Of a stretch of 64,000 bases of DNA, positions 52,079 through 64,000 are shown piece after piece. Position numbers and translations under genes: made by a program. Source of the stretch: Oceanospirillaceae bacterium (lineage in GTDB: Bacteria > Pseudomonadota > Gammaproteobacteria > Pseudomonadales > Litoribrevibacteraceae); NCBI GenBank assembly GCA_015665455.1, contig JADFAD010000013.1, positions 158,888-222,887 on the forward strand. The letters run 5' to 3'. Each line of letters opens with the position of its first letter. Position 1 is the stretch's first letter. The notes under the pieces are model-generated. The model was not told where the DNA came from. It ran no database searches and saw only the letters and a list, made by a program, of their open reading frames with translations.

Positions 52079-53764
52079 TTAAGCAGCACCGATCTTCTTT
52101 AACTCTTCATCACGTAGTTCACGACGAAGAATCTTACCTACGTTTGTTTTAGGAAGTTCTTCACGGAACTCAACAAACTTAGGAATCTTATACGCTGTTA
52201 ACCCATCACGACAGAAGTTACGAACTTCCTTATCCGTTAGGTTCTTATTAGTAGTAACAGCAAAGACTTTAACCGCTTCACCGCTCTTATCATCAGGCAC
52301 ACCAACAGCAGCACACTCAACAATATCAGGGTGACTTACAATGAAATCTTCCAGTTCATTTGGGTAAACGTTGAAACCAGAAACAATGATCATATCTTTC
52401 TTACGATCAACGATCTTCATGTAGCCGTCATCTTTAATAACTGCAACATCACCAGTCATCAACCAGCCATCTTCTGTGATGGTCTTAGCCGTTTCATCTG
52501 GACGCTGCCAATAACCTTTCATTACCTGTGGGCCTTTAACACAAAGCTCACCACGATCACCTAACGGCAAATCATTACCATCGTCATCGATCGTTTTACA
52601 AATAGTGTTTGGCGCAGGGATACCAATTGAACCAATCTGGCCATAGCCAGGCGGGTTAAAAGATACGATAGGTGACGTTTCAGTCATACCGTAGCCTTCA
52701 GAAACAACACAACCAGTGACTTGTTCCCATTGCTCAGCAGCATCTTTAGTTAATGCCATACCACCAGAGATCGTCAGCTTTAGAGAGCTAAAGTCTAACT
52801 TTCTGAAATCTTCGTTATTGCATAGAGCCACAAACAAAGTATTAATACCTAGCATTCCAGAGAAATCCCAATTTCCCAATTCCTTAATGAAACCAGGAAT
52901 ATCACGAGGATTTGGAATAAGAACACTGTGGTTACCTGTATACATCATGATCATACAGTTAACTGTGAATGAATAAATATGATAAAGCGGTAACGGAGCA
53001 ATAACCGTTTCTTGGCCTTCATTCAGCACTGCTTCAAAGAACACATGCGCTTGACACATATTCGAAATCAGGTTGCCGTGTGTCAACATAGCACCTTTAG
53101 CAACGCCTGTTGTACCACCGGTGTACTGCAATACAGCAATATCATCTCGGGTAAACGATGCAGCATTATACTTACCTGAAGAACCTAGCTTAAGCGCTTT
53201 GTTAAGAGAGGTATATTCAAGTGAATCATAAGCAGGGACCATCTTTTTAACACGTTTAACAACGGTGTTGATGATTTGCTTTTTAGGGAACGGATGCAGA
53301 TCTGCAATTTCCGTAACAATAACGTGTTTAACACCTGTTCGAGGAACAACACTTTGCGCCAAAGAAGCCATGCCTGCATAGCAAACCAACGCTTTAGCAC
53401 CGGAATCAGTAAACTGGTGTTCCATTTCACGTTCAGTGTATAGAGGGTTCGTATTCACAACGATCATGCCTGCACGCATAGCGCCAAACACAACAACAGG
53501 GTACTGAACAATATTAGGTAACTGAACAGCAATACGATCGCCTTTTTCAAGACTTGTATGATTTTGCAAATAAGAAGCAAACTGAGCCGAAAGCTTATTC
53601 AGTTCACCATAAGTCATGGTGCGACCCATGTGAGTGAAAGCTGGCTTTTCAGCAAACTTGCCGAAGGAGTCTTCCATTACTTCAACAACGGAATTGTATT
53701 TTTCTACATTTACTTCACTTGGAATACCTTCTGGGTATTTATCCTTCCAGAAATTCTCAATCAT
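52079..53764 (-). CDS. fadD: Long-chain fatty acid-CoA ligase, downstream copy
   Basis: Acyl-CoA synthetase of 561 residues that activates fatty acids with ATP and CoA. Motifs: LQYTGGTTGVAKGA (P-loop), YGMTETSPIVSF, KGYWQRPDETAKT, MKIVDRKKDMIIVSG, and Lys in TNVGKILRRELRD. The ATG at 53764 is chosen for the GGAGG ribosome site five bases upstream. It follows a second fadD on the same strand with about 150 bases between; the two look like a tandem duplication, as in Pseudomonas fadD1/fadD2. Confidence 0.95.
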   Translation of the reverse strand: MIENFWKDKYPEGIPSEVNVEKYNSVVEVMEDSFGKFAEKPAFTHMGRTMTYGELNKLSAQFASYLQNHTSLEKGDRIAVQLPNIVQYPVVVFGAMRAGMIVVNTNPLYTEREMEHQFTDSGAKALVCYAGMASLAQSVVPRTGVKHVIVTEIADLHPFPKKQIINTVVKRVKKMVPAYDSLEYTSLNKALKLGSSGKYNAASFTRDDIAVLQYTGGTTGVAKGAMLTHGNLISNMCQAHVFFEAVLNEGQETVIAPLPLYHIYSFTVNCMIMMYTGNHSVLIPNPRDIPGFIKELGNWDFSGMLGINTLFVALCNNEDFRKLDFSSLKLTISGGMALTKDAAEQWEQVTGCVVSEGYGMTETSPIVSFNPPGYGQIGSIGIPAPNTICKTIDDDGNDLPLGDRGELCVKGPQVMKGYWQRPDETAKTITEDGWLMTGDVAVIKDDGYMKIVDRKKDMIIVSGFNVYPNELEDFIVSHPDIVECAAVGVPDDKSGEAVKVFAVTTNKNLTDKEVRNFCRDGLTAYKIPKFVEFREELPKTNVGKILRRELRDEELKKIGAA

Positions 53765-53819
53765 ACTGCCTCCAAAACAGAGCATCATCCTAAAGAAACT
53801 ATCCAAACCCTTAAACGAG

Positions 53820-53849
53820 CGAGGCAGAAGCCTATCAGCTTTCTGCCTC
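53820..53849. repeat. Inverted repeat between fadD copies
   Basis: GAGGCAGAAG and CTTTCTGCCTC form a near-perfect stem with a loop. No T run follows on the minus strand, so it is not a clear terminator; it may be a processing or attenuation structure. Confidence 0.5.
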
Positions 53850-53913
53850 TGTTCAAAGGTAAATCAACATTAAGTTTTCATCCATGTTAAAACTCAATGT
53901 TTCACCTATGTAC

Positions 53914-55614
53914 TTACTTAGCAACCTCTGCATCACGCAATTCACGACGAAGAATCTTACCAACGTTAGTCATTGGTAATTCTTCACGGAACTCATAATG
54001 TTTTGGCACTTTGTAACCCGCCAGATTCTCACGGCAATAAGCTTTGATTTGATCAACAGTTACGTTCTTATCTTCAAGAACAACAAACAGTTTAACTGCT
54101 TCGCCCGTTTTCTCATCAGGCAAACCAATAACCGCCGCATGTTCAATGCCTGGCAACTTAGCAACAACGTCTTCAATTTCGTTTGGATAAACGTTGAAAC
54201 CAGAAACAAGGATCATATCTTTCTTACGATCAACGATTGCGATGTAACCCGCTTCATCAATTTGTGCAACATCACCCGTCTTCAACCATTCCCCATCAAG
54301 GAATGTTTCAGCCGTAGCTTCAGGACGCTTCCAATAACCCTTCATTACCTGAGGACCACGAACACAAAGCTCACCACGTTCGCCTTCAGGTACGTCTACA
54401 CCGTCGTCATCAACTAAACGAATATCTGTAGAGGCTACCGGCATACCTACAGTACCGTGTCGAACATAATCACCCACAGGGCTCAAACAAACCGCCGGAG
54501 AGGTTTCAGTCATACCATAACCTTCACCGATATCGCAGCCTGTCATCTCTTTCCACTTATCAGCAGTTGCACGTACTAACGCAGTACCGCCTGAAAGCGT
54601 CATTTTCAGCTTACTGAAATCAAGATTCTTAAATTCTGGATCTTGCATCAAACCAACAAACAAGGTGTTCAGACCTGCAAATGCAGTAAACTGGAACGGT
54701 TTGATGATTTTGATGAACATAGAAGGATCACGAGGGTTAGCAACCAATACGTTATGGTTACCGAGAGACATCATGCACATACAATGGCAAGTAAACGCAT
54801 AGATATGGTAAAGCGGCAATGGCGCAATAATTGTTTCATTACCAACGTCCATAAACGGACGTTTAGTTTCAGGGTTTTCTTGCTGTAGTGACGCTCTAAC
54901 CTGAAGCATATTAGACACAAGGTTGCGATGCGTCAGCATTGCACCCTTAGCAACACCCGTAGTACCACCTGTATATTGTAAAACTGCTACATCATCAGGA
55001 TTAGGACTTGCTAACTTGAATTGGTGCTTAGCACCTTGCTTCAAAGTAGTACGGAAAGAGATCGCCTGAGGCAAGTTAAAATCAGGAACCATCTTCTTTA
55101 CATGCTTAACAGCACCATTAATCAACCAGCGCTTCGGCGCAGAGCGCATATCAGCCAAGCTAGTTACGATTAATGTTTCAATGCCTGTTTCAGGCAGTAC
55201 TTCCTGAACCTTATCTCCGAACGTATCCATGAAGATAAGTGCTTTAGCACCAGAATCATTAAACTGATGCTTCATTTCACGAACAGTGTATAAAGGGTTC
55301 GTATTTACCAGAACCATACCCGCTCTCAATGCACCGTATGCAGCGATTGGGAACTGTGTAATGTTTGGCATTTGGATCGCAACACGATCCCCAGGCTGAA
55401 GGTTTGTATGATTTTGCAGGTAAGCAGCAAAATCAGCACTCAAACGATCGATATCGCCCCAGGTGAACGTTTTAAAAACACTAGTAAAAGCGGGTCTGTC
55501 AGCGTATTTTTTTACAGACGTTTCGAATACATCTACAACGTTTTTGAATTCTTCAGGATTAATTGTATCTACAACACCTGGTGGACGTTTGCCACTCCAG
55601 AAACTGGCATCCAT
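53914..55614 (-). CDS. fadD: Long-chain fatty acid-CoA ligase, upstream copy
   Basis: Acyl-CoA synthetase of 566 residues, first of the tandem pair. Motifs as for the other copy: LQYTGGTTGVAKGAM, YGMTETSPAVCLSP, KGYWKRPEATAETF, IAIVDRKKDMILVSGFNVYPNE and TNVGKILRRELRDAEV. The two copies are alike through most of the length but differ in the segment after residue 230 (RASLQQENPETKRPFMDVG here). AGGGAG lies seven bases before the ATG. Its promoter is in the gap shared with the divergent lipase gene. Confidence 0.95.
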   Translation of the reverse strand: MDASFWSGKRPPGVVDTINPEEFKNVVDVFETSVKKYADRPAFTSVFKTFTWGDIDRLSADFAAYLQNHTNLQPGDRVAIQMPNITQFPIAAYGALRAGMVLVNTNPLYTVREMKHQFNDSGAKALIFMDTFGDKVQEVLPETGIETLIVTSLADMRSAPKRWLINGAVKHVKKMVPDFNLPQAISFRTTLKQGAKHQFKLASPNPDDVAVLQYTGGTTGVAKGAMLTHRNLVSNMLQVRASLQQENPETKRPFMDVGNETIIAPLPLYHIYAFTCHCMCMMSLGNHNVLVANPRDPSMFIKIIKPFQFTAFAGLNTLFVGLMQDPEFKNLDFSKLKMTLSGGTALVRATADKWKEMTGCDIGEGYGMTETSPAVCLSPVGDYVRHGTVGMPVASTDIRLVDDDGVDVPEGERGELCVRGPQVMKGYWKRPEATAETFLDGEWLKTGDVAQIDEAGYIAIVDRKKDMILVSGFNVYPNEIEDVVAKLPGIEHAAVIGLPDEKTGEAVKLFVVLEDKNVTVDQIKAYCRENLAGYKVPKHYEFREELPMTNVGKILRRELRDAEVAK

Positions 55615-55761
55615 AATAGGACTCCCTGTTCGTATTTAGTTTATTGTTATTTGCTTGATTTTTTTTATGAGTAGGGACATTAACAATTATGTAAAGTTTT
55701 GTGAATAGCTGAACTTATATTTATCTCTTCCATTTGTCTAAAAGCGCCATACAGTTCTCGT

Positions 55762-55775
55762 AAGTTATGTAACTT
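55762..55775. promoter_or_regulatory. Inverted repeat in fadD/lipase divergent gap
   Basis: AAGTTA-TG-TAACTT is a perfect inverted repeat in the 250-base gap between divergent fadD and lipase genes. It could be a regulator site; it is not the FadR or PsrA consensus that I know. Confidence 0.4.
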
Positions 55776-55864
55776 GCTTCCTATTTGGAAAGCAAACGGG
55801 TTAAAATCCCCTCCAAAATATAAATCTTATTTCTTAAATAACCCCCAAATGGACTGATCACTGC

Positions 55865-56794
55865 ATGGAAAGCTGTACCGGTACGGCCCACGGCGCCGAC
55901 AACTCACCTATTTTTTATCGCTGCTGGCTACCAGAAGATGCAACTCAAGCCTCTTGTGTATTGCATATTGCTCACGGAATGGCAGAACACAGTAAACGCT
56001 ACGAATTATTTGCAGAACAATGTGTAAAAAAGAACATTGCCGTTTATGCCCATGACCATAGAGGCCATGGACACACCGGAGCCAAAGACATGTTAGGCCA
56101 TTACAACGATGTAAATGGCTGGCAAATGGTTCTGTCTGATATGAACGACATACAAACGATGATTAGAACAAATCATCCAGGACTTCCTGTCTATATAATG
56201 GGCCACAGTATGGGGTCTTTTATTACACAAGGCTATGTATTCAAGTATCAACCAAATATTAGAGGCTTAATACTTTCGGGCAGCAACTTTGGAGCACCGT
56301 TCAAATACAAAGCAGCTCGTCTTGTTGCTAAGTTAGAACGGTTTAGAAAAGGGCCTCGTTTCCGTAGCAAGTTATTCGAAAAGCTAACATTTGGTTCTTT
56401 CAATAATCGGTTCAAACCAAATCAAACCAATTTCGATTGGTTATCCAGTGATTTAACTGAAGTTCGAAAATACATTGAAGATCCACATTGCGGTTTCGTT
56501 TGCACAACTCAACTGTGGTGCGACTTACTAAAAGGCCTTGCTAGCATCTCAACAGAAAGTGCGTTCAAAAGACTTCCCACTGAAACACCACTATTAATCT
56601 TCGGTGGCCAAGAAGATCCAGTAGGCCACTATGGTAATGGTCTAATTAGCCTTGCCCATCAATACTCGACTGCAGGGGTGAAAGATATCGATCTTCAGAT
56701 ATATCCCGACGGAAGGCATGAAATGTTGAATGAGATAAATAAGACTGAAGTTGGATCTCATGTAATCAATTGGATTGAATCCAAACTTCATTAA
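55865..56794 (+). CDS. Monoacylglycerol-lipase-like alpha/beta hydrolase
   Basis: A 309-residue serine hydrolase of the lysophospholipase / monoacylglycerol lipase group. Nucleophile Ser in IMGHSMGSFITQ, Asp in FGGQEDPVGHYG, His in DGRHEMLNE. HIAHGMAEHSKRYELFA and HDHRGHGHTG are typical. No signal peptide, so cytoplasmic. Its place next to the fadD pair fits release and activation of fatty acids. No strong ribosome site before the ATG. Confidence 0.9.
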   Translation: MESCTGTAHGADNSPIFYRCWLPEDATQASCVLHIAHGMAEHSKRYELFAEQCVKKNIAVYAHDHRGHGHTGAKDMLGHYNDVNGWQMVLSDMNDIQTMIRTNHPGLPVYIMGHSMGSFITQGYVFKYQPNIRGLILSGSNFGAPFKYKAARLVAKLERFRKGPRFRSKLFEKLTFGSFNNRFKPNQTNFDWLSSDLTEVRKYIEDPHCGFVCTTQLWCDLLKGLASISTESAFKRLPTETPLLIFGGQEDPVGHYGNGLISLAHQYSTAGVKDIDLQIYPDGRHEMLNEINKTEVGSHVINWIESKLH

Positions 56795-56804
56795 TGAATA
56801 AAGG

Positions 56805-57191
56805 TCAGTTAAAACACTGACCATTATTCACTTGAAAGGTTAGGTTTTCTCTGTTTTCAAACTGAAGCTCCAAAACAGAGAGACGCCCAATGCCTTCAAC
56901 TAAATCAGAAAAGCGCTCTGTTTCAGCTACAGGCACTGAATTCAAATGAGTCAAGACCTGCCCGTCACGTAATCCTGCTTGATAAAGAAAATTCTGAGAA
57001 TCCAGATGCGTGATCTCAAACCCTTCCAGTACTTGGTTCTTAATAACAGGTTCGTACGAGACTTCCCTGTCCCACAGGGATCTATCTTGAGACCAACTGG
57101 TTAAAAGGCCTTGAGGCAAGTAACTGCACTCAGCATAGCTGTTCAACGGCAGAATAAGACCCAAAACAAAAATTAATACGCTTCGATACAT
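56805..57191 (-). CDS. Periplasmic PDZ-like protein
   Basis: A 128-residue exported protein. Signal peptide MYRSVLIFVLGLILPLNSYA. The C-terminal half looks like a PDZ fold, similar to the GspC type: LEGFEITHLDSQNFLYQAGLRDGQVLTHLNSVPV. Two Cys remain (near residues 22 and 126), able to form a disulfide. TGAGG precedes the ATG. It is the last gene of the minus-strand TolQR/AgmX cluster, 78 bases after it, and may be part of it. Confidence 0.7.
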   Translation of the reverse strand: MYRSVLIFVLGLILPLNSYAECSYLPQGLLTSWSQDRSLWDREVSYEPVIKNQVLEGFEITHLDSQNFLYQAGLRDGQVLTHLNSVPVAETERFSDLVEGIGRLSVLELQFENRENLTFQVNNGQCFN

Positions 57192-57269
57192 AAGCTTTCC
57201 TCAGAAAACATTGTAAGGCTTAATCAATGCACCCAAGGTCTAGAAGAGATCCTGAGTACATCAACAACA

Positions 57270-58220
57270 TTAGCCTTGAGTAAATTCATACCATAAACGA
57301 TATGTACCCTGCTCAACGTTTCTAGCACCAAAATCAAATAAACGAATACGCGCAACAAGCCTTGATTCAAGCTTACGATCATCTAGCTCGCTAGACGCTA
57401 CACGACACGCAGAGACAGATCCATCCGGCTCAATAGTAAACTCAAACTGGACCTTACCTTCTAGTAACGGATTCTTACGCAGTGCACGGTTATAAATAGT
57501 AAACATAGGGCCTTTATTCGCATCAAACACTCTACGAATTTCTTCATCACTACGTTTACCTTTCTTACCTGCTCGTGCTTTTTGCTCCGCTTCAGAGCGA
57601 ACATCCGCTAATGCAGTCTCATCGTTAAGATCTGCGACCTGCCCTTGTAAACCAGAGCCTGCAGTACCTCGAGAAACACCCGCAGCAGAAACACCCCCAC
57701 TGCCAGAAACAGCATTAGAAGAAATTACTGCTCGTTCTACCTTCGTGGCCTTATTGCCCCCTTGATTAATATTAGAACCTTTAGCCAAAGTACTTAAATT
57801 AAGCGACTGCCGAAGATCCTTTAAAGCATCCGTGTGCTTTAACAGACCAGATTGCTGAGCCTTTTTCCGAGCTTTTTCCACATTCTTTGGATCTGGCTTA
57901 GGTTTCGGTTTTTCAACTTTTTTTTCTGGTTTAGGCTTTTCTTTCGGTTTCTCTTCTTTTACTTCAGGTTTCGCTTCCTCTTTTTTCTCCTGTTTAGGAG
58001 GCGGCGGTGGCGCTTTTTTCTTCTTCAAAATAACTTTAGAAAGCTGAGGAGGCAGTTTCTCTAACTCTTCACGTTCTGGTTCAGTTAATGTGATAAAAGG
58101 GATTACTAGCCCCAACAGTAAACAAACAATTAAGAGGGTTGATAATATCTTCCTGAAACGAGACTGCTCTTCAGGATCAATACTCCACGGCAATCGATAA
58201 TCAAATGCTAATGTTGCCAT
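57270..58220 (-). CDS. TonB-like AgmX/PglI C-terminal domain protein
   Basis: A 316-residue energy transducer. One membrane segment (24-45) is followed by a Pro/Lys/Glu-rich span (about 66-112, starting APPPPPKQEKKEE) long enough to cross part of the periplasm, a Gly/Ser-rich middle (145-205), and a C-terminal domain (about 228-316: RRVFDANKGPMFTIYNRAL, GKVQFEFTIEPDGSV, GTYRLWYEF) of the AgmX/PglI kind. This end resembles Myxococcus GltJ (AgmX). A very strong AAGGAGG ribosome site is present. It starts at the ExbD stop. Confidence 0.9.
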   Translation of the reverse strand: MATLAFDYRLPWSIDPEEQSRFRKILSTLLIVCLLLGLVIPFITLTEPEREELEKLPPQLSKVILKKKKAPPPPPKQEKKEEAKPEVKEEKPKEKPKPEKKVEKPKPKPDPKNVEKARKKAQQSGLLKHTDALKDLRQSLNLSTLAKGSNINQGGNKATKVERAVISSNAVSGSGGVSAAGVSRGTAGSGLQGQVADLNDETALADVRSEAEQKARAGKKGKRSDEEIRRVFDANKGPMFTIYNRALRKNPLLEGKVQFEFTIEPDGSVSACRVASSELDDRKLESRLVARIRLFDFGARNVEQGTYRLWYEFTQG

Positions 58221-58724
58221 TTACACCTCCTTTGTCACTTTACGGTTAACCGCAAGTGAGATGTTGGTGTAATTTGCGTCAGCACACGTAGCCATGATCC
58301 TTTTTAGAAGATTATAAGGAATTAACTTATCACCAACGATCGTAATAGGACGCCCTTCTTGTTCCTGTTCAGAAGTCAACAAACGCTGTTTGGATGCTTG
58401 ATACAGAAGTTCTTCTTTCAATGCTGGTATCAGCGCATCCTCACCTTGCAAGTCGCTCACTGTAGCCACAGCACGCCCCTGAACCAAGATGCTGTCTTTA
58501 TTTACAAAAACAACCAAAGCCTCTTCAGGCAAACTCTGAGCCGTAGACTCAGGTAGTTTAATGGATTCACTGCTCTGAAGGACACGAACATCCGACTGAT
58601 TGACCATCAAGAAAAACACCAGAATGGTAAAAATATCCATGAGAGATACAAGGTTCAATGCTGGTTGTTTCTTATTCCTAGCAAAGTGCCTAGACATCCG
58701 TTTTGCACGACGTGACATTTTCAT
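58221..58724 (-). CDS. ExbD/TolR-family protein, Asp-containing
   Basis: A 167-residue channel partner. One membrane helix (about 24-44) carries the proton-path Asp30 in LVSLMDIFTILVFFLM, as in ExbD and TolR. The rest is periplasmic: LVVFVNKDSILVQG and PITIVGDKLIPYNLLKRIM. Its ATG overlaps the stop of the other exbD (ATGA) with GGAGG upstream. The AgmX-like gene follows with no gap. It should be the energised partner for the TolQ-like channel. Confidence 0.92.
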   Translation of the reverse strand: MKMSRRAKRMSRHFARNKKQPALNLVSLMDIFTILVFFLMVNQSDVRVLQSSESIKLPESTAQSLPEEALVVFVNKDSILVQGRAVATVSDLQGEDALIPALKEELLYQASKQRLLTSEQEQEGRPITIVGDKLIPYNLLKRIMATCADANYTNISLAVNRKVTKEV

Positions 58725-59242
58725 GCATCACCTCCTGCTTGCTTCTCACCGGCTAATGGCTCAGGCGCATCCCCTATGGATATATCAGGAAATAGCTCTG
58801 CATCCACCACGGAGGCAACGACTACTGTTTTATAAGATCTCACAGAATCCATCACCGCTACGAGCGTCTGATATTCTGTGCTTTCTTCTGCCAGAAGCGT
58901 AATGTCTCTTTTTTCAGGTACTTTCTTTTTGATGGTTACCAATAACTTAGAAAGGCCAGAAAAGTCGTGACTGTCTTTAATTTTTGGAAACTCTTGAATA
59001 GGCCCTTTAATCGTATCTGCCAACACAAGTCGATCAGTACGAATTACAACTTCCAGCTGTAATTCATTAAGATCCAATTGATCATCAACCGATTGATTTG
59101 GAAGCTTTAACTCAAGAACCGTGATATTGGCAAAAACCATACTTAACAAAAGTACAGGCACCAAAATAATCATCAGGTTCATGAAGGCCGTAATATTGAG
59201 CTCCGCTTCATCAGCTTGATGCCGAATGCGCTTTTTCAACAT
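58721..59242 (-). CDS. ExbD/TolR-like protein lacking the channel Asp
   Basis: A 173-residue ExbD-like protein. The membrane helix reads ELNITAFMNLMIILVPVLLLS; Asn22 replaces the Asp of the ExbD family, so it should not carry protons. The periplasmic part (DLNELQLEVVIRTDRLVLADT, KKKVPEKRDITLLAEE) keeps the usual fold. It lies three bases after the TolQ stop and overlaps the next exbD by four bases. It is likely a structural partner with the Asp-bearing subunit. Confidence 0.88.
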   Translation of the reverse strand: MLKKRIRHQADEAELNITAFMNLMIILVPVLLLSMVFANITVLELKLPNQSVDDQLDLNELQLEVVIRTDRLVLADTIKGPIQEFPKIKDSHDFSGLSKLLVTIKKKVPEKRDITLLAEESTEYQTLVAVMDSVRSYKTVVVASVVDAELFPDISIGDAPEPLAGEKQAGGDA

Positions 59243-59245
59243 CAG

Positions 59246-59920
59246 TTATTCGCCTTGCGGTGCAGCTGTATTAGTTGTTGGCTGATTTGGTTTACGGTCA
59301 AAAATGGTATTTAAAACTTTAACGCCTGCCATTTCGAAACTATCAATAATTTCATTTGTCTTTGTTTGAAGAAGCGCATGGCAGATAAGCAAAGGAATCG
59401 CAGTCATTAAACCAAAGGCCGTAGTGTTCATCGCAACAGAAATACTTTGCGAAAGAAGCGTTGCTTTTTCAGCGGGATCAGCATTAGCCACAGCAGTAAA
59501 GGCTGCAATCAAACCAATAATTGTTCCCAAAAGACCTAGCAAGGTAGCAACGTTAGCCATTGTCGCTAAATATGGTGTTCTTTTCTCAAGACGAGGCAAT
59601 GACTCCATCAAACCTTCTTCCATTGCATACTCAACATCGTCACGTCGCGCGCCACCTGATAAGCGTGAAATACCAGCAGCAACCAACTCACCCATAGCAG
59701 CACCGGACTCATTACCGACCTTCATCGCACTTTTAAAGTCTCTCTTCGAGATCATTGGCATCATTGTTTCGAACACTTTACGGTTCGTTCTTCTCGCAGC
59801 GGTTAGATAGACAAAACGCTCTATTGCAATTGCAATCCCGATTGCAGCAACCACTGCAATTGGATACATAAACGAACCACCTTCCTGAAAAAAGCGAACA
59901 ATAACTTCAAACGATCCCAT
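59246..59920 (-). CDS. MotA/TolQ/ExbB proton channel
   Basis: A 224-residue inner-membrane channel with three helices (about 16-36, 118-142 and 157-182). TPYLATMANVATLLGLLGTIIGLI and SVAMNTTAFGLMTAIPLLI carry the conserved Thr and Gly residues of the proton path. The cytoplasmic loop is basic. AGAGGA lies four bases before the ATG. It is first in a tight four-gene run with the two exbD and the AgmX-like gene, after a 131-base gap. Confidence 0.94.
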   Translation of the reverse strand: MGSFEVIVRFFQEGGSFMYPIAVVAAIGIAIAIERFVYLTAARRTNRKVFETMMPMISKRDFKSAMKVGNESGAAMGELVAAGISRLSGGARRDDVEYAMEEGLMESLPRLEKRTPYLATMANVATLLGLLGTIIGLIAAFTAVANADPAEKATLLSQSISVAMNTTAFGLMTAIPLLICHALLQTKTNEIIDSFEMAGVKVLNTIFDRKPNQPTTNTAAPQGE

Positions 59921-60051
59921 GAAATCCTCTCTCGTATAACTTATCTATTTTAAATAAAAAAATATGAACTCAAAAAATCTTCATCGAAAACTAAAATCTA
60001 TACCATCAATTTATAAATCAAATTCGATAGACCTAACCCCGAGATTTTATT

Positions 60052-60330
60052 TTAAGGGCTCTCTGATGATTTTAAATTCTTTTGAAACTGTTCAACTTGC
60101 CGCTTAAAACCAAAATAGTCCAAATACCCATCCGTTGGCTCTAAATCGGGTTTGATATTCTGCTTTAAGCCGCTTAGTTCAGCATCCGTTTGCCAAGGTG
60201 TAATAAATAAAACCTTTGGCTGCTCCTGATTACCTCGAACAAAAATGCCCTCTAACTCAATAACTTCTGCAGCCATTAACGTTTGAGGTAATAATCCAAC
60301 TAAAACAATAAACAAGTACTTATGAATCAT
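60052..60330 (-). CDS. Small periplasmic protein of the TolQ cluster
   Basis: A 92-residue exported protein. Signal peptide MIHKYLFIVLVGLLPQTLMA, cut before AEVIELEGIF. The mature part reads IFVRGNQEQPKVLFITPWQ with a strand-rich start and a helical, charged end. It does not match a family I know. Its ATG overlaps the stop of the TPR lipoprotein gene (ATGA), with AAAGGTG upstream, so it is translated with it. Confidence 0.8.
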   Translation of the reverse strand: MIHKYLFIVLVGLLPQTLMAAEVIELEGIFVRGNQEQPKVLFITPWQTDAELSGLKQNIKPDLEPTDGYLDYFGFKRQVEQFQKNLKSSESP

Positions 60331-60983
60331 TGAGCACCTTTAGCTTTGAGGCGACGTTCTAGATCAATGATCCATCCCTTGACCGTTCTATCTGAATTAT
60401 CTATTAAAGCTAGATACTTCTTATATTGTTGTAACGCAAGTTTTGGTGTTTGTAGATAGAGATCAAGTAAAATCCCGTAGTTTTTATGTACGATTGGGGA
60501 CTGCTCCTCAAAACCAAGACAAACTAAGTACACTTCTTCAGCGTCTTTGAATTTTCCATGCGATCTAAGTTCACGAGCATAAGCGGTACAAACAGAAGTA
60601 TTTGCAGGATCAATAAAATGCGCTTGCTGGTAAAAACTCAGCGCTGAATCTGAATCGCCTGAGGATTGAGCTAAATAAGCTCGATTATAAATAGGCGTTA
60701 CTAAATCAGGCCTCTGACGGATTAAAGAATCCAACAGCTCTGCTGCCTTCTTACTTTTTTTATTTTTCATTGCCGAAGCCGCTAACGAGAAATCATTCCG
60801 ATAGGATGCATCAACATTCATCAACCCTATCGAGGCGTATTCACTGTAGTCAGTCACAATGACGGGTTTTTCCTTTGTCACAGGTGCAGGGTCACCCGTT
60901 GAGAACTTATTTGACGCACAAGCACTTAATAAAACAACAGAACCCAATAATATTAATTTATTGAATAACTTCAGCATACCCAT
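60327..60983 (-). CDS. TPR lipoprotein, 218 residues
   Basis: Exported lipoprotein with lipobox LLSAC (Cys22). Four or five TPR-like units span about 65-200 (KAAELLDSLIRQRPDLVTPIYNRAYLAQ; ALSFYQQAHFIDPANTSVCTAYA; AEEVYLVCLGFEEQ). The residue after Cys is Ala, so outer-membrane sorting is likely. Its start overlaps the end of the larger TPR gene by 26 bases. A second ATG two codons on is possible. It is probably a scaffold in the cluster; compare GltE of Myxococcus, by role only. Confidence 0.88.
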   Translation of the reverse strand: MGMLKLFNKLILLGSVVLLSACASNKFSTGDPAPVTKEKPVIVTDYSEYASIGLMNVDASYRNDFSLAASAMKNKKSKKAAELLDSLIRQRPDLVTPIYNRAYLAQSSGDSDSALSFYQQAHFIDPANTSVCTAYARELRSHGKFKDAEEVYLVCLGFEEQSPIVHKNYGILLDLYLQTPKLALQQYKKYLALIDNSDRTVKGWIIDLERRLKAKGAQ

Positions 60984-63867
60984 CTACCTGTTCGTCTTTT
61001 GCATAACGGGCTGGCAAAATGATTGCCAACTTACTAAAGCTTTCTTTAACCCAACGATCGTAAACACCTTCTTTTGTTCGAGCAATATTTGTTTCATAGA
61101 CTTCAATTGACGTCTCTTCAAAAGGATACGCTTGTTCTTCAAGAAGAATATCGTACTGCTCTAATTCAAGTTCATTCAAACCTTTTGGTCTTTGAGACCC
61201 CATTAAGTCTTTACCCATTCGATAATAAGCATCAGCAATTCGATGCGTTGATGCTGTACTGTATTCAGAAACACCGTATTCAGCGATTGCTGTGTATTTC
61301 TTAATGACTGACTGCATTACCTTTTGCTTACGTTTAATCGATTTTCCCAAAGGCAAGGTGAGTTTTGCACGTGTAAACCGTTTCCAATCATCTTCGGCCA
61401 GTTCAAAAGATGCGGATGCAGCTAGGTATTTAGAGCGAGAGGATCTATTTGCGCCAGCATTCCGATCATTTTTGATTATCTTTTTAAGCCAGAATTTTCG
61501 TTTATTCACTTCATTCTTAGTTTTGTATAAACCGGCCAGTTTATTTTGAGTCTCAAGATTAACAACAAATGGCGCAGGATAACCATGGGCGTACGTGCGA
61601 TATCTATCTATAGCTTGATCTGTTTTACCGCCCTTTTCGAAATACTCAGCCGCTTGGTATAGCGCCTTTCTACGGTCATCTTTTTCTAATTTATCATCGT
61701 TCGCCATTGATGTAAGTTCATTCGCAGCTTCTGGCCAGCGCTTACTTTGCTCGTAAGCATAAATGAGCTTCTCACGAATGCCTGATGACAACTTATTCTT
61801 TGGATAAGTCTTACGGAAAGCAATTAACTTCTTAATGGCAGGCGACCACTGCTCTAGAATCAAATACTGAGCAATAATGTCGTATTCAGTTTGAACTTTA
61901 ATTTCAGCTTCAGGCACAACCACCAAAACACGTAGGTATTGATCAAGCGCCTTCTGATTCTCTTTTAATTTCGCAAACTGCTCACCTTGGCGATAGATGC
62001 TGATCGCCAATCGTTGCCGAAGCGAAGCGTAAAGCTCATGTTTACGATTCATCAATCGAAGAGCTTGGGTGTAACCGTGTTCAGATTTTGCGTAATCAGC
62101 AAGTTCAAAAGACGCGTGTGCTACAACAATCCAAGACGCCCTTCGATGTTTACGAGAGGAATAAGGTTTCCAATTTAAAGAACGTCTTGAGTTATCAATG
62201 GAGTATTCGGACTTTCCAGACTCAAGTAGCTTTACAATCACGCCTTGAGCGGTATTGCGCGCTACTTCATAGTCATCCAATTTTAATAAACTTTCTGAAG
62301 CATCCACTAAAACACCGATTGATCGGGAGTCATTAGCAAATTCTTTGGCATATTTTAAGGATTGATCAATCTTGTTTCGCTGATCGACTTCTTTTTTACT
62401 TATAGAAGCAATGGATTGGTAGGCAACAACAGCCGAATATCCCGCAGAAGAGCGCTCTGATATTTCATATTCAGGATAATCATAAGCAGCACTTAAATAA
62501 GCCGTGGCTGCATTTTCATGCTGCTTTAGTAACGCATAAACATCACCGGAACGATGGTACTTCTGTGCAACATCTACTTCTTTAGGGAAATCTTGTATGT
62601 ATGTTTTGTACCAATTAATCGCCAAGCCAAAGTACTCGACCTGTTTCTTAGGCTGCCTTTTCGACTTCTGGCCACGCGTATGATAGTAACTAGCCAATTG
62701 GCTAATGTATGTTTTCAGCCTTTTAGTATGTGTTTCTTCAACCCTTGTCTGTGCTTTATTCCACTGACTGTGCACCCCATATCGGGTTGCATATTCAGAT
62801 TTCGCAGGAATAATAACCGAAGGGAAACGGCCCAACTCATAAACCTTAATAACACGCGCATATACATCTGGCCCATCAGCAGCTAAAGGATGTCTCTCAA
62901 TGTAAGCCAGGTAGGTATCAGCCGCATCCTGATAGCGTTCTTTACTTTGGTACAGTAACCCTAACGATGAAAACACCAAAGATTCGTAATGACGTTTCCC
63001 AAACTTGTTAAAATGAGAAACTACGGATGAACCGCCTTCTTGATAAGAAAAGGCATAGCTCATAGCTCGAAAGGAGTCTTCAATCAGTGCTTTTTGGTTT
63101 CTGGTTAACGATTGGTAAACCTGCTTACTTGGCGCTAACTGATCCAGCAATAACGTAAATTGATCTAATGAGTCAGCGTACTCTGATTGTTTAAACATGG
63201 ACCAAGCCATCATATAACGCGCATTCACCGCGAATTTTGAGTCAGGGTCTTTCTTTAAAACCTGCTTATAAGCCTTCTCGGCATTAGAATATTTTTTATT
63301 ACTATAAAAGTATTCCGCTCGACGATAATTGGCCTCCGCAGCCAAAGAAGAGTTAGGATATCGAATCAGCATCTGTTCAAGTAACTTATCACTGGTACCG
63401 ATTCTGCCTTTTAAGCCATAGGCTTTAGCTAACTGATAGTAGACTTTGTCGTTATCAGGAGAATCAGGATAGTCCTTTAAAAGTTTTTTGTAAGATAGGA
63501 TCGTTGAATCAAACTTGCTCATTGCTACTTTCTGCTGTTCAACAGTTTCGCCCAGTACTTGCAGTTCTTCACTTTCAACCATCGCCAAGCCAGCTAAACG
63601 CCGTTCAATACGAGCTTTTATTGCTGGATCAGAAATCATCGCCAAAGCACTCTGATAACTTTTAACAACAGACGTATGAGTTACTGCTTTGGTATTTACA
63701 GCCTCAACATCAGGTATCCGAGCAGGATTCACTTGATCGTTGCTCTCAATTTTAGGCTTTAATGATTCGACTTCAGGGTCATCAATAGAAATAACTTGTT
63801 CAGAAGCACAAGCAGCAAGAAACAAAGCCCCGAGCATTAAAAAAGCTGAGCGTAATAAATGCTTCAT
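60958..63867 (-). CDS. Large TPR lipoprotein, 969 residues
   Basis: Lipoprotein with lipobox LAAC (Cys20) and Ala next to it, fit for the outer membrane. The protein is made of many TPR/Sel1-like helical pairs, such as DNDKVYYQLAKAYGLKGR, AAEANYRRAEYFYSNKKYS and DAADTYLAYIERHPLAADG. It lacks an enzyme motif and looks like a long scaffold. Its ATG overlaps the stop of a preceding gene (ATGA). The size and place are like the TPR proteins of Agl-Glt sets. Confidence 0.9.
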   Translation of the reverse strand: MKHLLRSAFLMLGALFLAACASEQVISIDDPEVESLKPKIESNDQVNPARIPDVEAVNTKAVTHTSVVKSYQSALAMISDPAIKARIERRLAGLAMVESEELQVLGETVEQQKVAMSKFDSTILSYKKLLKDYPDSPDNDKVYYQLAKAYGLKGRIGTSDKLLEQMLIRYPNSSLAAEANYRRAEYFYSNKKYSNAEKAYKQVLKKDPDSKFAVNARYMMAWSMFKQSEYADSLDQFTLLLDQLAPSKQVYQSLTRNQKALIEDSFRAMSYAFSYQEGGSSVVSHFNKFGKRHYESLVFSSLGLLYQSKERYQDAADTYLAYIERHPLAADGPDVYARVIKVYELGRFPSVIIPAKSEYATRYGVHSQWNKAQTRVEETHTKRLKTYISQLASYYHTRGQKSKRQPKKQVEYFGLAINWYKTYIQDFPKEVDVAQKYHRSGDVYALLKQHENAATAYLSAAYDYPEYEISERSSAGYSAVVAYQSIASISKKEVDQRNKIDQSLKYAKEFANDSRSIGVLVDASESLLKLDDYEVARNTAQGVIVKLLESGKSEYSIDNSRRSLNWKPYSSRKHRRASWIVVAHASFELADYAKSEHGYTQALRLMNRKHELYASLRQRLAISIYRQGEQFAKLKENQKALDQYLRVLVVVPEAEIKVQTEYDIIAQYLILEQWSPAIKKLIAFRKTYPKNKLSSGIREKLIYAYEQSKRWPEAANELTSMANDDKLEKDDRRKALYQAAEYFEKGGKTDQAIDRYRTYAHGYPAPFVVNLETQNKLAGLYKTKNEVNKRKFWLKKIIKNDRNAGANRSSRSKYLAASASFELAEDDWKRFTRAKLTLPLGKSIKRKQKVMQSVIKKYTAIAEYGVSEYSTASTHRIADAYYRMGKDLMGSQRPKGLNELELEQYDILLEEQAYPFEETSIEVYETNIARTKEGVYDRWVKESFSKLAIILPARYAKDEQVDGYAEVIQ

Positions 63868-64000
63868 AGCCCACCACCTACACCAGCAAAAGAAGGCTCT
63901 TTAATTGGAACGGATGAACTCAATTCATTTGCTATTTCGTCACGAATTCTCGCCGACGCTAAAATGGATTGTTCCAAATAGTTTTGAGCAACCCTCTCTT
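63864..64000 (-). CDS. Partial gene upstream of TPR cluster (3' end)
   Basis: Only the last 44 residues are in the window: a helical, charged segment (NYLEQSILASARIRDEIANE) and a Gly-rich end (SFAGVGGGL). The stop overlaps the ATG of the large TPR gene (ATGA), so it belongs to the same operon. The full protein is cut off by the window edge and cannot be identified. Confidence 0.8.
   Translation of the reverse strand, partial: ERVAQNYLEQSILASARIRDEIANELSSSVPIKEPSFAGVGGGL

Follow-up and report, generated by a model that had tools for sequence, protein, structure and literature searches.

A gene cluster of the Agl-Glt/Nfs class with an asparagine-bearing AglQ and linked redox genes in an Oceanospirillaceae bacterium

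Gene run at the window end

The core complex of the Agl-Glt machinery is the presumed ancestor from which myxobacterial gliding was built. Here we describe a gene cluster that, judged by its sequence, almost certainly encodes a machine of the Agl-Glt/Nfs class, located at the end of a 64,000-nucleotide stretch of DNA (the window) from an Oceanospirillaceae bacterium (assembly GCA_015665455.1, contig JADFAD010000013.1). The window corresponds to contig positions 158888-222887, and coordinates above 222887 are in contig numbering. Between 56805 and 64000, a collinear minus-strand run, in which the open reading frames (ORFs) overlap slightly at several joints, comprises the following genes:

63864..64000 (63864 to ~65900; contig 222751-224787), minus strand: GltC-like periplasmic TPR protein of 678 residues, cut by the window edge; recognized by profile
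60958..63867, minus strand: GltD-like TPR lipoprotein of 969 residues; the gammaproteobacterial profile matches GltD ORFs
60327..60983, minus strand: GltE-like TPR lipoprotein of 218 residues; profile and a weak NCBIfam GltE match
60052..60330, minus strand: exported protein of 92 residues, probable GltF/CglF; position, profile rank and hhalign
59246..59920, minus strand: AglR orthologue, a proton channel of the TolQ/ExbB/MotA family; MotA_ExbB and profile
58721..59242, minus strand: AglQ orthologue (ExbD family) with ITAFMNLM, Asn replacing the motor Asp; profile and tree
58221..58724, minus strand: AglS orthologue (ExbD family) with SLMDIF, motor Asp retained; profile and tree
57270..58220, minus strand: GltG-like transducer of the TonB/TolA type without FHA domain; NF033760 and NF033768
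56805..57191, minus strand: PDZ-like exported protein of 128 residues, accessory and lineage-specific; PDZ_6 at 18 bits, below cut-off

An earlier note on this DNA had listed these ORFs, and each was found at the place and on the strand that it had claimed, with several overlaps at the joints. Its calls of TolQ, ExbD, TPR and AgmX/PglI domains were backed by Pfam and NCBIfam: the two ExbD proteins matched Pfam ExbD at 1e-17 and 1e-13, the TolQ-like protein matched MotA_ExbB at 1e-29, and the lipoproteins contained TPR. The synteny comparison that the note had proposed revealed the order p207-GltC-GltD-GltE-(92 residues)-AglR-ExbD-ExbD-GltG in ~20 other genomes of the same order, a conservation far above chance. 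The p207 gene lies beyond the window edge and stands before gltC in almost all core clusters. Its family combines a signal peptide with an Ig-like region (weak Big_3_5), and a search of 903 Myxococcota ORFs with it gave no match below E 4.5.

Orthology to the Agl-Glt core complex

Profiles built solely from gammaproteobacterial members were searched against the loci of Myxococcus sp. CA023, Hyalangium, Sorangium, Minicystis, Nannocystis and Enhygromyxa, Myxococcota whose genomes were reached through MglA. The GltD profile found the Myxococcus and Hyalangium GltD ORFs at 5e-86 and 3e-89, and the lipobox Cys20 of the 969-residue protein was invariant in 20 orthologues. The GltE profile found Hyalangium GltE at 2e-41, while a longer paralogous TPR ORF scored better (1e-51); the window protein itself matched NCBIfam GltE weakly (6e-4). 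GltC/NfsC-type ORFs were found at 6e-11 and 4e-10, one of them being NCBIfam GltC at 2.4e-62, and the GltG and AglR profiles reached their Myxococcota namesakes at 3e-20 and 4e-55, respectively. The two ExbD profiles were selective, since the first matched AglQ at 8e-22 (the other only at 4e-3) and the second matched AglS at 1e-29 (the other at 1e-8). NCBIfam labelled the Hyalangium targets as GltC (2e-62), GltE (3e-29) and GltG (6e-111), and a reversed-sequence control for the gammaproteobacterial profiles gave nothing better than E ~1. A search against Agl and Glt proteins had been suggested in the earlier note, which had proposed a related, energised, envelope-spanning machine. All seven core proteins matched Myxococcota counterparts (from GltD at 3e-89 to GltC at 6e-11), and the proposed orthology holds under this direct profile test. 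In Nannocystis and Enhygromyxa, the order GltD-GltE-AglR-AglQ-AglS-GltG occurs in one cluster, as in the Gammaproteobacteria. This single cluster of these two Myxococcota has the motor genes between GltE and GltG, whereas the Myxococcus loci are split. A GTDB record named Comamonas sp. KCTC 72670 has an MglA 99% identical to that of M. xanthus and is probably a mislabelled Myxococcus.

The earlier note's reading is right in kind, but the occurrence of such a machine in Gammaproteobacteria is not new. The main text of Luciano et al. 2011 (PMC3169522) describes gltC, gltD, gltE, gltG, aglR, aglQ and aglS (group B) as a core complex whose genes lie together in Gammaproteobacteria, names Marinobacter, Teredinibacter and Saccharophagus as hosts and argues that this complex alone does not drive motility; its presence in non-gliding Gammaproteobacteria, published there, was revisited in 2013 (PMC3858216). 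Since the 2011 paper describes exactly this gene set, our cluster belongs to an already known group. The seven group B genes form one run here, with most of GltC beyond the window edge, and the host is likewise without documented gliding. According to the same text, the gammaproteobacterial clusters hold one extra gene without myxobacterial homologues; p207 is the candidate for this gene in our cluster. The main text differs from our observations in that it mentions no AglQ Asn, GltF-like gene, linked OMP_myx_plus barrels or redox module. GltI, GltJ, GltK and CglB were not recognized in the cluster, and no genome-wide search was made for them. An AglR of this type was present in 15 out of 398 sampled Pseudomonadota genomes, all 15 of the same class. 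In another genome (locus L236), a second copy of AglR is interrupted by a TAA stop in frame and possibly belongs to a decaying duplicate core cluster. Marinobacter atlanticus ACP86_00815-00830 (PMC8233155) resembles, by its description, GltG-ExbD-ExbD-ExbB, and was not recognized as such in that study.

The transducer consists of one transmembrane helix, a Pro/Lys-rich linker and a C-terminal AgmX/PglI domain (NF033768; 65 bits, cut-off 40). The earlier note's description of an AgmX/PglI-domain TonB-like protein thus stands for the domain, while the protein as a whole is closer to GltG (NF033760; 1.2e-19) than to AgmX/GltJ (6.5e-06), and we rejected its assignment to the latter. The GltG match was limited to model positions 395-628 of 650, and Pfam and NCBIfam scans found no FHA domain on the transducer, as the note had also remarked. 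The TolQ, ExbD and TonB-like domains of its subunits relate the cluster to Tol-Pal and TonB-ExbBD, which share an energiser of the 5:2 motor family, and the 969-residue protein matches YbgF/CpoB TPR models. It is nevertheless highly improbable that the cluster is a TonB-like or Tol-like system serving uptake or the integrity of the outer membrane. None of the subunits reached the tolQ, tolR, exbB, exbD or tonB equivalog cut-offs (the TolQ-like protein scored 65.9 bits against 221 for tolQ and 43 bits against 206 for exbB; tonB_Cterm gave 21.2 against 27.1), and a separate TolQ lies well above the cut-off (308.6 bits) on another contig of the same genome. On these grounds we rejected membership in Tol-Pal or TonB, the case that the earlier note had named as fatal to its reading. 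In addition, no pal, tolB or TonB-dependent receptor was found in the cluster, which further differs from both systems in having two different ExbD proteins, of which one lacks the motor Asp, and the Glt orthology is much stronger.

Motor residues of AglQ and AglS

At the position of the motor Asp, 35 of the 38 AglQ orthologues have Asn, as does the window protein; two have Ser and one has Asp. All 38 AglS orthologues retain the Asp. The Asn position corresponds to D28 of Myxococcus AglQ, the Asp having number 28 in the protein of Myxococcus sp. CA023, and a tree placed the AglQ and AglS types on opposite sides of one branch (support 100/99). Asn is likewise present in the AglQ of Nannocystis and Enhygromyxa, and the grouping of these proteins with paralogues that bear Asp (92/90) modestly supports a change that arose a second time and independently. 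In M. xanthus, AglQ D28 is required for proton conductance, and D28N paralyses gliding and blocks sporulation (PMC3858216). The window's AglQ thus lacks the Asp28 that defines the Myxococcus motor, a residue that does not enter into the published core gene set. The earlier note had not mentioned this loss. We found no report of the AglQ Asn in the open-access literature, and relative to that literature it is new that gammaproteobacterial AglQ is naturally in the D28N state: many bacteria already have the substitution by which the motor of Myxococcus is killed.

Given Asn in AglQ and Asp in AglS, the motor is either a half-active heterodimer or relies on AglS homodimers. Judged by homology, proton flow through the AglS Asp probably drives the machine. 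If AglQ and AglS pair, the heterodimer would be half-active because only the AglS type has the proton-carrying Asp; we regard such a pair with one active site as an even bet. The alternative, that AglR and AglS-only homodimers form the motor while the AglQ-type ExbD has a structural or regulatory role outside the channel, for instance as a peptidoglycan anchor, appears rather doubtful to us. It would explain why every AglS retains the Asp while AglQ has lost it, and a review noted that AglQ and AglS both carry Asp and that homo- versus heterodimerisation is unknown (PMC9389320). On the other hand, AglQ D28 itself is essential in Myxococcus (PMC3858216), and gammaproteobacterial AglQ retains its full transmembrane helix and ExbD domain. 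The Asn bears on 5:2 proton motors, namely on whether the two different ExbD-type subunits pair as a heterodimer and whether both Asp are needed.

GltF, outer-membrane barrels, redox genes and the proposed role

Beyond the window edge the run continues on the minus strand for ~10 kb up to apbE, and from apbE to the PDZ gene all neighbours overlap or lie <135 bp apart. The additional genes, which the earlier note could not see, are:

contig 224778-225401, minus strand: p207, preceding gltC
contig 225310-226491, minus strand: DUF3570 barrel
contig 226451-226732, minus strand: DUF4266 lipoprotein ending in GGCGCN
contig 226739-227239, minus strand: TlpA
contig 227259-227927, minus strand: OMP_myx_plus barrel (TIGR04565)
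contig 227924-228721, minus strand: SH3-barrel protein
contig 228721-229206, minus strand: lipoprotein of 161 residues
contig 229233-232142, minus strand: lipoprotein of ~969 residues carrying HZS_alpha and PD40 along with CxxCH motifs for heme binding
contig 232239-233279, minus strand: apbE, head of the run

The 92-residue protein belongs to a family with the motif V-x-G-N-x-E-Q-P-K-V-L-Y-I-V-P-W, and its gene occupies the gltF position between gltE and the motor and gltG genes. When its profile was searched against the 903 Myxococcota ORFs, the top four hits were four small exported ORFs in the F position (best 2e-3), and hhalign related this small Myxococcota family to the 92-residue family at 76.5% (E 2e-5). 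None of the gammaproteobacterial 92-residue proteins matched NCBIfam GltF directly, only the Hyalangium ORF matching CglF, and the link is therefore based on gene position, on the ranking of the profile hits and on hhalign. The protein is probably, though not proven to be, GltF. OMP_myx_plus barrels above the cut-off occurred in 63 of the 245 genomes sampled across the order, and 62 of these 63 had gltD. A profile of these barrels found the ORF upstream of the Hyalangium GltC paralogue (1e-4), which itself scored 57 bits with TIGR04565 (cut-off 60). In M. xanthus, the two outer-membrane barrels GltA and GltB interact directly with GltC (PMC4488436), and the gammaproteobacterial barrels are likely, on weak support, to be their orthologues. 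In the main text of PMC3169522, gltA, gltB and gltF are listed as confined to Myxococcales and Bdellovibrionales. A probable GltF together with adjoining barrels of the GltA/GltB type in a gammaproteobacterial cluster is new relative to the literature that we found.

The same run contains a redox module consisting of the DUF3570 barrel, the DUF4266 CxC lipoprotein, TlpA, the HZS-alpha cytochrome lipoprotein and ApbE. DUF4266 was present in 66 of the 83 gltD-positive genomes and in 21 of the 162 gltD-negative ones (Fisher 3e-25, kinship ignored). Furthermore, 26 out of 133 DUF4266 genes were near gltD, all within ~18 kb, versus ~1.9 expected at the neighbourhood limit of 30 kb, and the linked cases were spread over 13 family labels. 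Two arrangements predominated, with DUF4266 either on the same strand 3.6-6 kb upstream of gltD or on the opposite strand ~13-18 kb upstream. In clusters of the divergent type, a conserved trio lies between core and redox operon: a Tat-signal protein of ~539 residues without Pfam match, a cytochrome-LamG lipoprotein of ~850-908 residues and a DUF1585-like cytochrome protein. Meheust et al. 2021 (PMC8238504) described clusters for flavinylation composed of ApbE, DUF3570, thioredoxin and DUF4266. The same four families are all together in the window's run, joined to the Glt core, whereas the text of that paper mentions no TolQ, ExbD or TPR. Most divergent-type clusters that were inspected contain the [ST]GA[ST] flavinylation site. 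It is absent from DUF3570 of the window's genome and of L030 (SSAS and YASP), and among the cluster proteins scanned only ApbE itself had it; flavinylation of the window's DUF3570 was rejected accordingly. The apbE gene at the head of the same run looks intact. The core complex and a surface redox module in one gene run are new relative to the literature that we found, and with the barrels the redox genes offer a concrete candidate cargo for the core complex.

Taken together, we favour, with some reserve, a proton-driven trans-envelope machine that moves or positions surface cargo, probably the redox module, in the manner of Agl-Nfs and without gliding. AglR would form the inner-membrane proton channel together with the two ExbD proteins, of which only the AglS type would transfer protons. 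Proton flow would drive GltG, a TonB-like rod across the periplasm (AglR-GltG binding was detected by two-hybrid, as the main text of PMC3169522 reports), and GltG would act on the periplasmic TPR proteins GltC, GltD and GltE and on the small GltF. These may connect to the GltA/GltB-type barrels encoded just upstream, so that cargo at the outer membrane or surface, and not the cell, would be moved or positioned; the redox module is the likeliest candidate for this cargo. That the redox proteins are cargo or client is a tentative proposal, and an asymmetric stator, with an AglS Asp helix and an AglQ Asn helix, that places or moves on the cell surface an outer-membrane electron-transfer assembly of DUF3570 barrel, cytochrome lipoprotein and DUF4266 lipoprotein, in gammaproteobacterial core complexes, is an unlikely, more specific version of it. 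The precedent is Agl-Nfs of M. xanthus, a standalone machine that moves spore-coat polymer and is paralogous to the core complex, which was considered a possible basal transport machine by Wartel et al. 2013 (PMC3858216). Nfs-type clusters and ours share a gene order that runs from the barrels through C, D, E and F to G. In our cluster, however, the motor genes are placed between F and G, redox genes separate the barrels from C, GltG has no FHA domain and no GltH counterpart was recognized in the cluster.

Several observations weigh against this proposal. Many core clusters have no adjacent redox module and 17 of the 83 gltD-positive genomes lack DUF4266, so a redox cargo is not universal. The DUF4266 association carries no correction for phylogeny, the flavinylation motif is missing from the window's DUF3570, the heterodimer is assumed while AglS homodimers, with AglQ doing something else, would fit equally well, and we found no functional data on any gammaproteobacterial core complex in the literature. 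Clusters without the adjacent module (L033, L037, L038 and L046) would be expected if the machine were instead a basal transporter of surface polysaccharide or lipoproteins, serving envelope maintenance or polymer handling, with the redox module a mere frequent neighbour, and Nfs itself provides the precedent. We nevertheless regard this as improbable, with DUF4266 and OMP_myx_plus linked to the core far above chance across 13 family labels and no glycan synthesis or export genes recognized within the cluster. That the organism glides by means of this machine is hardly credible. The motor, transducer and TPR proteins are orthologous to those of the M. xanthus gliding machinery, from which the cluster differs by the Asn that replaces the essential Asp28 of AglQ. 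The core genes, however, were argued to be insufficient for motility (main text of PMC3169522), and gliding is disfavoured because MglA and FHA are missing. The genome-wide search for the MglA GTPase gave a best match of E 0.41, in line with the earlier note, which had seen no polarity gene and had placed the machine in an organism without known gliding.

The core genes of the earlier note's list recur in relatives, but its PDZ gene is no constant part of the cluster, being present only in the nearest genus (L030). The PDZ, hydrolase and fadD genes were rejected as machine parts, as they adjoin the cluster only in that genus. The cluster is flanked (52079-56794) by two neighbouring fadD-like acyl-CoA synthetase genes and a convergent gene for a monoglyceride-lipase-like hydrolase; the hydrolase and one fadD occupy the same place in L030.

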